DNA from: Synergistaceae bacterium
Lineage (GTDB): Bacteria > Synergistota > Synergistia > Synergistales > Aminobacteriaceae
Length of the DNA: 35,798 nucleotides
Direction: 5' to 3'
NCBI GenBank assembly: GCA_017444345.1
Contig: JAFSWW010000120.1
Coordinates: forward strand, 1-35,798
Below, one piece after another: positions 27,976-35,798 of the stretch (position 1 is its first letter; every line of letters begins with the position of its first letter). The notes under the pieces were generated by a model. It ran no database searches. It worked only from the letters and a program-made list of their open reading frames with translations, and was not told where the DNA came from. The position numbers and the translations under genes are program-made.

Positions 27976-28984
27976 ATTCTCGTAAAATTGTGAAGTAAAA
28001 TTTTCCAGTCAAGCGAGTCATTTCGTTCACTGTTATAATTTTTGCGGGATCGATCTGGCTTGCTTCTCCTGACTCAATAAAATTTTTTATCGCCTCACGC
28101 CACTCGTCAACATTTCCGGCTTTAACGAGTCCCCCCCGTGAAATTTCATGCAATGCGGGCAAGTCCGACGCTATAACTGGCAGTCTCATAGAAGCAGCCT
28201 CAAGAACTGACAAGCCCATGCCTTCACTAAGAGACGGAAATAATAAACATGAAGACTTTGACATGAATAATTTAACTTCTGATTTAGATTTGACACCGTG
28301 AAAAGTTACGCGCTGATTTAGATTTAAATTTTTTACGAGTGATTCTAACTCTTCACGCTTTGAGCCGTCGCCTATAATATCAAGTGTCCAGTTGTATTTT
28401 ATTAGCCCTGATAATGCTTTTATTGCTATATCGAGTCCCTTAATTCCCGTTAAACGCCCTACAAATAAAAATTTTATGCTTTCTTGTGAGTCATTATTAT
28501 TAAATATTTCAGGCGGGTTTATGCCATTATAGATAATTTTCACGTTATTAGCAGGCAAATATTTTCTTAAATGATTCTTTACTGATTCAGACACACAAAT
28601 AATTCCGTCGGCATGTTTTAACGGAGTCAAGCCCAAATTCAACGAGTATAAAGCATGTGCAGTCATAAGCCATTTAACGCCGGTTAAACTCGATAACAGC
28701 CAAGCAACCCACGCGGGGACTCTCGAATGAACGTGTATAATGTCCCAGCAAAATTTTTTATTGAGCCTAGAAAGTTTTATAGCCGCATAAATTATAGTAA
28801 AAATATTTTTCCGGGCCGACTCAACGTGAATAATTCTGACATTCTCAGGAAGCAATGACTCAAGACTGCCTCCGTTAGTTGCTAGTGTGATTTCATGTTC
28901 GCCCGCGAGTCCCTGAATTAGATTCAATAAATGATATTCTGCTCCGCCCTCGTTAAATTCAGGAATTATATATAAAATTTTCAT
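27950..28984 (-). CDS. Family 4 glycosyltransferase
   Basis: 344 residues, GT-B fold. MKILYIIPEFNEGGAEYHLL opens the acceptor domain. FLFVGRLTGIKGLDIAIKAL begins the donor domain, and EGMGLSVLEAASMRLPVIAS is the E-x7-E motif binding the nucleotide sugar. It probably adds a sugar to the LPS core or a related glycolipid on the inner face of the membrane. I use the ATG at 28984, which overlaps the upstream stop as ATGA; the ATG at 29002 would add six residues. It is the last gene of the Kdo operon. Its 3' end overlaps the convergent pseudogene by 26 bases. Confidence 0.9.
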   Translation of the reverse strand: MKILYIIPEFNEGGAEYHLLNLIQGLAGEHEITLATNGGSLESLLPENVRIIHVESARKNIFTIIYAAIKLSRLNKKFCWDIIHVHSRVPAWVAWLLSSLTGVKWLMTAHALYSLNLGLTPLKHADGIICVSESVKNHLRKYLPANNVKIIYNGINPPEIFNNNDSQESIKFLFVGRLTGIKGLDIAIKALSGLIKYNWTLDIIGDGSKREELESLVKNLNLNQRVTFHGVKSKSEVKLFMSKSSCLLFPSLSEGMGLSVLEAASMRLPVIASDLPALHEISRGGLVKAGNVDEWREAIKNFIESGEASQIDPAKIITVNEMTRLTGKFYFTILREFTNLQATL

Positions 28985-30054
28985 ATTTGATTTAACAGCC
29001 ATTCAGCCGCTCTCTTGGCCTCGTTGAATTCCATATTATGACGCTGTTCTTCAGGCTCTAAAAATTTTTCAAAATATGGGATCTCGCCTAAATCTTCAAT
29101 TAAGCCTCTTCTCTTCATTTCGTCAAAAGTAGCGTCAAATTTCTGAGTCCCTCCGCCGAATAATTTTTTAACAAATCCCGTAGTTCTCGGCAAACGAATT
29201 AAGCCCGCTTTAAATCCCGCCGTTATTACTTCTGAGACCATAGAAATAGAATCCTCCGTAACAAAAACATGCGTGGCCTGACCTAAAATCGCAGTCAATA
29301 AGTTCATGTTTACATTTCTCGACATTAAATGCATGTGAGCTACTGAAGGATGACCCGAAAAAATTTGCTCGATTGCGTTCTCTACTGCTGTCCCTGTTCG
29401 TCTCGATGTCGTTATAAAAATTTTGATTCCCTCTATATATTGCAGCGGCGATAATATATCTTCTACCCATTCAGGCGTAATTTTATAGTTCGAGTCATTC
29501 CCGCCGATTATAAGCCCGACAACTTTTTTACCTGCAAAATTAAATTCTTCTCCCCTGAAAAATGTCTCTGATATTGCCCTTAAATCATCAGGATATATGT
29601 GATTAGGCGCGCCCAGTGTCGTAAAAATATGCTTGTCTCCCTTGTCGTATTTATCATGAGTGGGAATTATAGCAAAGTCAAACGGCTTCGTGCCAAGTAC
29701 AGACGGAGTCATTATTACAGCGCATTTATTACCAGTCGCACGAGCATATGCCAAACAAAACGGTGCAGCAGGCCCGCCAGCAGAAATAAATAAAGTCCCC
29801 GGCGCAAAATTTTTAACTTTAACGCCCGCAGCTTTGAGCCAATTTGTTAAATATTTCTTGTCCTGTGAGTCTAGAGTGCTGCCTAAATATTTCATGTGTA
29901 TTAATTTCTTAAATCCATGCAAAACAGGTACAGTTATCATAGGCTCAACTGTAACATTTGATAATCTTTTGAGCCAGTTCGCTACTCCCATTGATTGATG
30001 GAAATGTCCGCGGATTCCGTCGCTTAGTACTACTACACGTTCTAATTTTGGCAT
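28981..30054 (-). CDS. ELM1-like (Mito_fiss_Elm1) GT-B-type protein, copy A
   Basis: 357 residues. The family blocks are clear: VVVLSDGIRGHFHQSMGVANWL at the N-terminus, TLFISAGGPAAPF, FDFAIIPTHD followed by TTLGAPNHIYP, VVGLIIGGNDSNYKITPEW, IFITTSRRTG, and VFVTEDSISMVSEVITAG. The last three resemble the nucleotide-sugar side of a GT-B glycosyltransferase. Bacterial members sit in LPS gene clusters, and the name comes from a plant mitochondrial protein. Here it follows its paralogue by 28 bases (SD-like AAGAAGAG). Transfer of a sugar to Kdo-lipid A or core is inference from context. Confidence 0.8.
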   Translation of the reverse strand: MPKLERVVVLSDGIRGHFHQSMGVANWLKRLSNVTVEPMITVPVLHGFKKLIHMKYLGSTLDSQDKKYLTNWLKAAGVKVKNFAPGTLFISAGGPAAPFCLAYARATGNKCAVIMTPSVLGTKPFDFAIIPTHDKYDKGDKHIFTTLGAPNHIYPDDLRAISETFFRGEEFNFAGKKVVGLIIGGNDSNYKITPEWVEDILSPLQYIEGIKIFITTSRRTGTAVENAIEQIFSGHPSVAHMHLMSRNVNMNLLTAILGQATHVFVTEDSISMVSEVITAGFKAGLIRLPRTTGFVKKLFGGGTQKFDATFDEMKRRGLIEDLGEIPYFEKFLEPEEQRHNMEFNEAKRAAEWLLNQI

Positions 30055-30082
30055 TTAATATCTCTTCTTTCAGGTAAATATA

Positions 30083-31153
30083 TCATGATTGAGACAAAAT
30101 CCATTCAGCCGCGCGTCTTGCCTCGTTGAAGTTTTTGCCGTGTTTCTGTTCAGGAAAATTTATAAAACTTGCAAAATCAGGACTCGCGCCTAAATCAGCA
30201 AGCAAATCTTTATCTCTCATTGAAGCAAATAAATTATCAAATCTTACAGCCCCGAATCCGAATAAATTTTTTATGAAATTTGACGCTCTGGGAACTCGAA
30301 TAAGGCCGACTCTAAATCCTGCAGTAATTGACTCAGATACCATTGAGACGGAGTCTTCAGTTACTAAAACATGATCCGCTGCTCCTAACATTGCGGGAAT
30401 CGGGTTAATTTCGGGCTCTCGTGAAGCTAATAACATGTATGCTAAATTTTTTGAATCAATAAATATTTTTTCGATCATATTATCAAGTGCCGCCCCTGAA
30501 CGTCTTGACGTAGTAATCAAAATCTGCGAGTCTTTAATATCTCTTAACGGCATAAAAATTTTTTCTGCCCATTCAGGAGTCAATTTATAATTTGCATCAC
30601 TTCCGCCGATTAATAAAGCTATAATTTTTTTTGTGCGGTCAAGTTTAATATTTGCTAAAAATTTGCGTGACTCCTCTTTCAAGTCAGGCCTATAAATATG
30701 ATTAGGAGCTCCCAGTGTTGTAATTATATTTTTGCCGCTTGAGTCGTGTTTATCATGTTCGGGAATTACAGCAAAGTCAAAAAATTTAGTTCCCAGCACA
30801 GACGGAGTCATTATTACTGCTGATTTATTGCCTGTAGATTTTGCCAGAGCCAGACAGAACGGAGCCGCCGAACTCCCAGCAGAAATAAAAAGTGTATTAG
30901 GCTTGAAATCTATATCTATATCTGCACCGGATTTCTTGAGCCATTCACGGGAATATTCAGGACTCTGCGCAATTTTTCGCACAAAAATTTTTGTCATGAG
31001 TAATTTTTTGATTCCGGTTAATTTCGGGACTTCTATAATTTCTCCCTGTTTCACTTCCGCGAGTCTCTCAAGCCAATTTGCCACGCCTAATGACTGGTGA
31101 AAATGTCCCCTTATGCCGTCGCTTATAATTACAACGCGTTTAATTCCCTGCAT
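30083..31153 (-). CDS. ELM1-like (Mito_fiss_Elm1) GT-B-type protein, copy B
   Basis: 356 residues, close in sequence to copy A along the whole length (VVIISDGIRGHFHQSLGVANWL; TLFISAGSSAAPF; FDFAVIPEHD; IIALLIGGSDANYKLTPEW; ILITTSRRSG; VLVTEDSVSMVSESITAG). The start lies 14 bases inside the 3' end of kdsB, so translation is coupled to CMP-Kdo synthesis. Differences are concentrated in the acceptor-side N-terminal half (about 35-80), which would fit two enzymes with the same donor but different acceptors; this is speculation. No transmembrane segments are seen. Confidence 0.8.
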   Translation of the reverse strand: MQGIKRVVIISDGIRGHFHQSLGVANWLERLAEVKQGEIIEVPKLTGIKKLLMTKIFVRKIAQSPEYSREWLKKSGADIDIDFKPNTLFISAGSSAAPFCLALAKSTGNKSAVIMTPSVLGTKFFDFAVIPEHDKHDSSGKNIITTLGAPNHIYRPDLKEESRKFLANIKLDRTKKIIALLIGGSDANYKLTPEWAEKIFMPLRDIKDSQILITTSRRSGAALDNMIEKIFIDSKNLAYMLLASREPEINPIPAMLGAADHVLVTEDSVSMVSESITAGFRVGLIRVPRASNFIKNLFGFGAVRFDNLFASMRDKDLLADLGASPDFASFINFPEQKHGKNFNEARRAAEWILSQS

Positions 31154-34547: not shown

Positions 34548-34771
34548 AATTTAATTCTGCCTCCTGATTAAAAAATTTTTGTAATATCTGAATTATATAG
34601 CATTTTGCGATTTATTGATTGATGATATTGCGTGAAATTTTTTTATTTACGAACGGGAATAAAGCACTAACGCGGGCGAGAATATATTTATTACACCTTA
34701 TATTTGCGCAAGATTTATTTATTATACATGCATGAATTTATTAATGCTCAGAAAATGGAGATGATTTTATA

Positions 34772-35798
34772 ATGTATCATGATAAAGAAAAATTTCTTAT
34801 ACTTGGAATCTTCATAAATGGCTGTGAGGCTGTTAATGACATGATAACCCGCGAACCTGACGGAGTAGAATTTTTTGCGGCATGTGATAATGAAAACGTG
34901 CTGAATTCCTGCAAAGCTGCTAAAAAATTTCTCGTTAATAATATTATTCAAGACGACCGGCAATTTTTCAACGATAATTTTATTGAGGCTGATATAATTT
35001 TTATAGTATTAGGCTCAGGAGAAAGTAATAAAAATTTTGCGCTCAAGATAGCACGTTCTGCCAAATTAAACGGGATATTAACGCTTGTGATTCCTGTTAA
35101 TGCTCAAGAAATAAATAATAATGACATTCAAGAATTCAAAAATTATTCTGACTCTGTGATATTACCGTTAATGAATAAATATGACGCTTCTATGATAGTT
35201 AAAAATATAATTTACTCGATAATTAAAGCAGGCTTCGTAAATATAGACTTTGCCGACGTTAAATATATTTTATACAATACGGGCACTGCATTTTACGGGA
35301 GTTTATGCGTATCGGGTCATGATAAAATTTCAACAGTCAGCAGCAAAACATTAAACATGTGCGAAAATATACGAGGCTCGCGAAATATTTTAATGAATTT
35401 CATAACAGGCGCAAATATAACACTGGGCGAATTATTAGACATTTCTAAAATTTTTGAGTCGTTGATTTCTCCTGACTCGTTATTCATATGGGGTCATTCT
35501 CTCGACGAAAATATGAGCGATTCTATCACGATAAATTTTATTATAGGCATGAATGACGGCGGCTATAAAAATTATCACGAATTATTTAATCACGAACGCC
35601 CGGAAATTCTGAAAAATTTAATTATAAACGGCCTTAGTGATTCACAAATCGTAAAAATGGGATCATATAAAAATTTTTTTACTTCCTGCATAATGTACGG
35701 CACTCCCGAATTAGTAAAATTTTTCATAAATAACGGCCATAACCCGCGGGAACTTCAAGAAAATGGAGTCTTCCCTGAAAATATTTTTGACGAGTTAA
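34772..35798 (+). CDS. Degenerate FtsZ-like protein with C-terminal ankyrin-like repeats, cut by the window end
   Basis: An open frame from the ATG at 34772 runs 342 codons to the window edge with no stop. Residues 1-260 follow the FtsZ order: LGIFINGCEAVNDMITREPD then GVEFFAACDNE (FtsZ GGGGxNAV... GVEFxAxNTD); ADIIFIVLGSGESNKN (76-87 region, replacing the GTP-binding GGGTGTG); NGILTLVIPV; SDSVILPL; the T7 loop GFVNIDFADVKYIL with N157, D159 and D162 kept; ILMNFITGANITLGELLDI; and IWGHSLDENMSDSITINFIIGM. Residues about 265-342 look like ankyrin repeats (HERPEILKNLIINGL and FFTSCIMYGTPELVKFFINNG). The GTP-binding motifs appear broken, so it is likely a pseudo-GTPase. GGAG lies 11 bases upstream. 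Confidence 0.75.
   Translation, partial: MYHDKEKFLILGIFINGCEAVNDMITREPDGVEFFAACDNENVLNSCKAAKKFLVNNIIQDDRQFFNDNFIEADIIFIVLGSGESNKNFALKIARSAKLNGILTLVIPVNAQEINNNDIQEFKNYSDSVILPLMNKYDASMIVKNIIYSIIKAGFVNIDFADVKYILYNTGTAFYGSLCVSGHDKISTVSSKTLNMCENIRGSRNILMNFITGANITLGELLDISKIFESLISPDSLFIWGHSLDENMSDSITINFIIGMNDGGYKNYHELFNHERPEILKNLIINGLSDSQIVKMGSYKNFFTSCIMYGTPELVKFFINNGHNPRELQENGVFPENIFDEL

Follow-up and report, generated by a model that had tools for sequence, protein, structure and literature searches.

In FtsZ, residues of the T7 (synergy) loop work on the GTP of the adjoining subunit, and regulators of the WYL type have frequent links to phage defence or stress. The T7 face of FtsZ is held to be the binding site of SulA, MciZ and the phage protein Gp0.4 (PMC13423816), all of which act at the longitudinal FtsZ interface, and in CapRel-Ebc/FtsZ-Gp0.4 immunity this face is part of phage sensing (PMC13423816). 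Proteins related to FtsZ but carrying further domains have been described as well. ARC3 of plant chloroplasts joins an FtsZ-derived domain to a MORN repeat domain, with true FtsZs alongside; it blocks FtsZ assembly and is restrained by its repeats (PMC5855766). FtsZl1 and FtsZl2 are families that have diverged within the FtsZ superfamily and contain additional domains (Makarova and Koonin 2010, PMC2875224), and the word ankyrin does not occur in the text of that paper. A literature search for FtsZ-ankyrin fusions, in which Babela was also looked at, found no paper. Here we describe an FtsZ-derived gene that resembles ARC3 in its repeat domain and in the presence of a true FtsZ, that has kept the T7 face, and that heads an operon with a nuclease similar to the PDDEXK_4 nuclease of the PADLOC candidate PDC-S26.

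FtsZ-like gene and its continuation into ankyrin repeats

The window, by which we mean the whole stretch of DNA analysed (35,798 nt), is all of contig C120 in the draft genome of a Synergistales bacterium (2.33 Mb, completeness 96%). Near its end, a reading frame starts on the forward strand with the ATG at 34772 and is open through the final base of the contig; its 5′ 342 codons occupy 34772-35797, and a GGAG resembling a ribosome-binding site (34757-34760, forward strand) lies 11 nt before the ATG. The product is a genuine FtsZ homologue. It matched the ftsZ profile TIGR00065 with E=9.4e-21 and 74.5 bits (below the equivalog cut-off of 295.2 bits) and the FtsZ_C profile PF12327 with E=8.8e-8, over the gathering score, and the top PDB chain was an FtsZ (2.8e-17). 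An AlphaFold2 model (pLDDT 73.5) consisted of the FtsZ fold followed by helices, and its best PDB match in Foldseek was 6ll6 (E=6e-22, TM 0.72 on the target); because the underlying alignment was shallow and included FtsZ rows, the fold is support for, but not proof independent of, the sequence. The initial annotation had aligned the first ~260 residues by eye along the FtsZ fold and had named beforehand, as evidence against this identity, a lack of FtsZ matches or of an FtsZ core in the model; the profile and PDB searches returned FtsZ, and so did the model. Chance resemblance to FtsZ is ruled out by the profile, PDB and Foldseek matches.

The annotation had further claimed that this protein lost its own GTP site while keeping the T7 loop, and the alignments agree on each point. 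The glycine-rich T1 loop is degenerate (ILGIFINGCEA, residues 10-20, 34799-34831; GIFINGCEAV at the first glycine loop), and the T4 tubulin signature GMGGGTGTG is replaced by LGSGESNKN (residues 80-88, 35009-35035). Beyond what the annotation had claimed, the nucleotide-binding T6/H7 stretch is shortened as well. The T7 loop is intact as GFVNIDFADV (residues 154-163, 35231-35260), with N157, D159 and D162 exactly as the annotation gave them. It lies in the FtsZ C-terminal domain, which comprises the end of H7, T7 and H10 (residues 142-262, 35195-35557; PF12327, TIGR00065 and model). Beyond it, a helical linker and the first ankyrin-like helices (residues 263-342, 35558-35797) replace the FtsZ tail, as seen in the model and in an alignment with fusions of six other genomes; the conserved C-terminal peptide and the disordered linker of FtsZ are absent, and an ankyrin-bearing tail stands in their place. 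All these features are on the forward strand. The ankyrin-like helices proposed at first stood in part: helices do follow the FtsZ fold in the model, but a profile search found no Pfam ankyrin match within the window part of the gene.

The ankyrin repeats themselves appeared on reading downstream. The last 99 bases of the window (35700-35798) also occur, without mismatch, on C137, another contig of this genome, as is typical of an assembly branch, and C137 carries the frame onward. A longer overlap of 378 bases is identical at 365 positions, from which strain variants cannot be distinguished from two near copies. Joined, the two contigs give a single frame of 999 aa in which an FtsZ-like domain leads through a helical linker into many ankyrin repeats (Ank_2, 1e-48 in the C137 part); this gene is followed on C137 by a WYL regulator and then a PDDEXK_4 nuclease. 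Genes for FtsZ-ankyrin, WYL regulator and PDDEXK_4 nuclease follow each other in this order also in G036, an uncultured Synergistales bacterium from reindeer, whose orthologue lies in full on a single contig of 107 kb (875 aa, 41% identical in the part that both share) and has ankyrin repeats that match Pfam at 3e-27. In a full-length model of this fusion (pLDDT 61.5, pTM 0.38) the FtsZ part and the first repeats were fair and the middle was poor, so we draw nothing from its overall shape. The separate true ftsZ that the initial annotation expected in the window genome (G000) was found on C67: it encodes 421 aa with canonical motifs and follows an ftsA-like gene, whereas the window gene lies outside the division cluster.

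Two further observations concern this genome. On C137 (L005, 3164-5020, forward strand), a second, far more divergent FtsZ-like and ankyrin protein of 618 aa, in which T7 is lost, faces the operon. In the window, positions 28981-31153 hold tandem paralogues, of which 28981-30054 matches Mito_fiss_Elm1 (PF06258) and 30083-31153 its paralogue by eye; they adjoin genes resembling kdsB, kpsF/kdsD and kdsA by eye.

FtsZ-derived family and retention of T7

About 30 FtsZ-derived genes were found in 20 of the 43 genomes of one Synergistales genus; the genomes are drafts, mostly fragmented, and the searches took in one genome per species and named collections. Beyond the window gene, the family includes six ankyrin fusions and the divergent seventh of L005, stand-alone FtsZ-like proteins of 207-297 aa, a single FtsZ-like domain joined to a nuclease domain of the PDDEXK_4 type (L044), and nine small proteins (~139-182 aa) that consist of the T7-bearing C half only, behind a short new N-terminus of the form MKxTLxFDGxxIxF. 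Open frames of 850-1000 aa occur in the family. In four genomes such C-domain-only genes adjoin a cstA-like gene (L046 4346-4765, L047 4340-4768, L048 4031-4450 and L057 3974-4408), and a related set lies near ilvC/ilvD-like genes (L049, L050 and L053).

A C-domain tree placed 24 of the 26 FtsZ-likes together to one side of a single branch (95/93), beside the FtsZs of the genus itself; its finer order is unsure, as the alignment had just 136 columns and several branches were long. The window gene is shown to derive by duplication from the FtsZ of its own lineage, and it has lost all of the GTP-binding apparatus while keeping the C-domain and the T7 face. One genome, G094, has a 297-aa FtsZ paralogue with a near-intact GGSTGSG directly upstream of the true ftsZ (L113, 3018-3911). 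This copy is a possible evolutionary intermediate, and its position suggests that the family arose by tandem duplication.

Among the matches listed in phylum-wide searches, no FtsZ mimic came from beyond the genus: the one FtsZ-region hit there in a frame over 600 aa, in G169, was a normal FtsZ whose frame is long and GC-rich. An origin from phages, plasmids or viruses was considered and rejected, as tblastn against phages and plasmids returned distant (<60%) matches only, which looked like ordinary FtsZ. In IMG/VR scans no FtsZ-ankyrin relative was found, and FtsZs retrieved with an FtsZ profile served as alignment rows only. A diverse alignment of the FtsZ/ankyrin junction had no stretch conserved enough for scanning, and a scan with a two-sequence junction alignment had the reindeer MAG as its sole match.

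We compared what the family has lost and kept. The canonical T4 GTP signature occurs in none of the 30 FtsZ-likes as against 44 of 45 true FtsZs, and the T7 motif N-x-[DE]-x-x-D is intact in 22 of the 30. Among the 54 C-domain positions that are at least 93% conserved in true FtsZ, T7 residues rank near the top for retention (G212 second, D217 third, D220 fourth and N215 sixth; mean of all positions 0.47), with P=4.7e-5 when the sequences are treated as given, a value that is only indicative because it ignores their kinship. E281, at the start of H10, ranks first. Two near-invariant FtsZ positions within T7 have changed, F218 being kept in 27% and A219 in 12%, and so the contact made by this loop may differ from that of FtsZ.

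The copies without T7 follow a pattern. The ankyrin fusions that lack it in L038, L041 and L043 are each preceded by an FtsZ-like gene with an intact T7, and as a result all nine operon loci counted (G000, G036, G035 twice, G004, G029, G010, G031 and G011) show exactly one intact copy, with the caveats that L036 is truncated on the 5′ side and that the T7-bearing partner in L038 is split into two frames. T7-less copies are mostly second copies; the others are in genomes with an intact copy, except in G096, which has none. The ratio pN/pS was ~0.3-0.4 in C-domain-only pairs and in one stand-alone pair, and ~0.5 in another stand-alone pair and in the FtsZ-ankyrin fusions. Retention of T7 without an own GTP site, noticed at first in the window gene, is thus supported as a selected property of the whole family.

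Operon with a WYL regulator, a nuclease and an AAA+ ATPase

Relatives of the FtsZ-like gene stand first in an accessory operon, which also encodes a WYL regulator, in most cases a PDDEXK_4 nuclease, and in some cases a twin-AAA+ ATPase. The WYL regulator (PF13280, 6e-10) has orthologues of at least 69% identity in ten genomes, in addition to one truncated copy (G012), and its upstream neighbour, wherever readable, is an FtsZ-like, ankyrin or PDDEXK_4 gene; the copies in G016 and G035 contain in-frame stops. The linked nuclease matches the PADLOC phage-defence candidate PDC-S26 with E=5e-58, and its D...ExK site is present in five stand-alone nucleases, so the operon has the two components, a nuclease with a PD-(D/E)XK site and a WYL regulator, by which a PDC-S26/WYL-type locus is recognised. 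In the fused nuclease of L044 the acid of ExK is replaced (IAIRVK for IAIEVK), and this nuclease is probably inactive. The twin-AAA+ ATPase, IetA-like in PADLOC, was seen in L035 (10256-12460), L039 (6268-8562), L057 (1778-3925), L111, L118 and L159. It occurs in 7 of the 43 genomes and in all seven is linked to FtsZ-like genes or their operon, the link in G009 being inferred across a contig gap from a repeated small gene at both contig ends.

Comparison of G004 with G029 points to an exchange of the 3′ half of the operon between species: 37-56% of synonymous sites differ in the flanking genes (pS 0.37-0.56), whereas only 6-17% do so in the ankyrin part, the nuclease and the WYL gene (pS 0.06-0.17), and the FtsZ-like start is strongly diverged. 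Exchange between species is often seen for defence loci.

Other neighbours were noted in individual loci. A gene resembling, by eye, a microbial protein of the PARG/TIGR02452 type lies between the AAA+ ATPase and the FtsZ-like gene in L111 (2171-3019), and an Mrr-type restriction endonuclease stands beside the WYL gene or a C-domain-only FtsZ gene in L043 (9019-10104) and L052 (1791-2852). In G031 the operon region appears twice, on C2 (40000-54000) and C10 (16000-30000) (L043 and L045), with identical matches, which is either a real duplication or an assembly artefact.

Discussion

A T7 loop that is kept while the GTP site is lost would be usable only on a partner. This favours docking on the true FtsZ, and our tentative preference, held with rather less than even confidence, is for an inducible FtsZ mimic whose T7 face docks on FtsZ, with arrest of division as the outcome. 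In response to damaged DNA or an infecting phage, the WYL protein would turn the operon on (induction is assumed here), and the T7 face of the mimic would dock onto the exposed GTP face of the true FtsZ. As the mimic carries residues that complete a neighbour's active site and has no GTP face of its own, we propose that it would cap or poison FtsZ filaments and so stop division for as long as the nuclease is at work. The ankyrin arm may sense a partner or keep the mimic in check, as ARC3 of plants is kept by its MORN domain. For the window gene, its sequence is compatible with the role of FtsZ cap or regulator initially suggested for it. DriD, a WYL regulator of Caulobacter, induces a damage-dependent division inhibitor (PMC4211646), and WYL proteins are found together with defence islands (PMC9122601); with these precedents, the WYL partner fits both division arrest and the use of the mimic as a decoy.

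The decoy is a close rival, nearly as serious as division arrest, even if we find it somewhat doubtful. A phage FtsZ inhibitor would bind the T7 face of the mimic, upon which the ankyrin arm would release or activate the nuclease module, a form of effector-triggered immunity. Since SulA, MciZ and Gp0.4 share the T7 face as their site, conservation of T7 fits such a bait equally well, and a phage-encoded ligand is at hand: in a model accompanied by binding data and mutants, Gp0.4 of phage T7 binds the synergy-loop face of FtsZ, and the complex of the two sets off CapRel immunity (PMC13423816). The PDC-S26 match of the nuclease, the direct fusion of a mimic to a PDDEXK_4 domain in L044, the patchy distribution, and a 3′ half exchanged in one species pair while the FtsZ-like part changes faster also suit a decoy. 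However, it would be odd for a pure surface mimic to keep the catalytic acids and change the neighbouring T7 residues, the nuclease domain of L044 is probably inactive, and C-domain-only genes lie by cstA or ilvC without such a nuclease alongside. Taken further, this would amount to bacterial immunity of a new class: a GTP-stripped FtsZ would be bait or switch, the ankyrin repeats would relay, and the PDDEXK nuclease, AAA+ ATPase and WYL protein would respond. We consider this proposal slightly more doubtful again.

Two other explanations were considered. The FtsZ-derived domain could be a scaffold inside a complex of its own operon (mimic-mimic, mimic-AAA+ or mimic-nuclease) and have given up contact with FtsZ, as the pairing of FtsZ-likes with and without T7 in one operon and the constant linkage of the twin-AAA+ gene (across a contig gap in one genome) might indicate; we think this unlikely, for it leaves unexplained why residues acting on a neighbour's GTP are retained if no partner bears GTP. 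That the genes are functionless, decaying ftsZ duplicates is already disfavoured and seems very improbable to us. The split first copy in L038, the in-frame stops in the WYL genes of G016 and G035 and a pN/pS of ~0.5 in the FtsZ-ankyrin fusions would agree with decay, but the lower ratios in the C-domain-only forms and one stand-alone pair, the selective retention of T7, the conserved operon and the long open frames argue against it.

An FtsZ mimic with an ankyrin arm in an operon with a nuclease and a WYL regulator looks like a previously undescribed tie of division to defence. If division arrest by the mimic is true, a protein of bacterial division has been converted by its owners into a GTP-dead component that controls or guards division, with a catalytic T7 loop conserved only for acting on another molecule. 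The family would then be a natural, genetically separate test of T7 face function, and would offer a direct handle on the coupling of division arrest and phage defence.

It would also be a bacterial counterpart to plant ARC3. The two differ in that ARC3 has MORN repeats, whereas those of the family described here are ankyrin repeats by Pfam, and in that ARC3 is a eukaryotic plastid protein without a nuclease/WYL operon. FtsZl1 kept the nucleotide-binding domain, has no FtsZ-like C-domain and shows a misfit at S6-T7 (PMC2875224); the window gene, with its PF12327 match, is the opposite. SulA, MciZ and Gp0.4 are not homologues of FtsZ and bind its T7 face, while the window protein bears this face itself. 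CapRel-Ebc immunity relies on the FtsZ that the cell already has and on a toxin-antitoxin fusion, with no FtsZ-derived gene (PMC13423816). PDC-S26, finally, is a candidate listed on its own, whereas here the nuclease is paired with an FtsZ mimic, a WYL regulator and sometimes an AAA+ ATPase.
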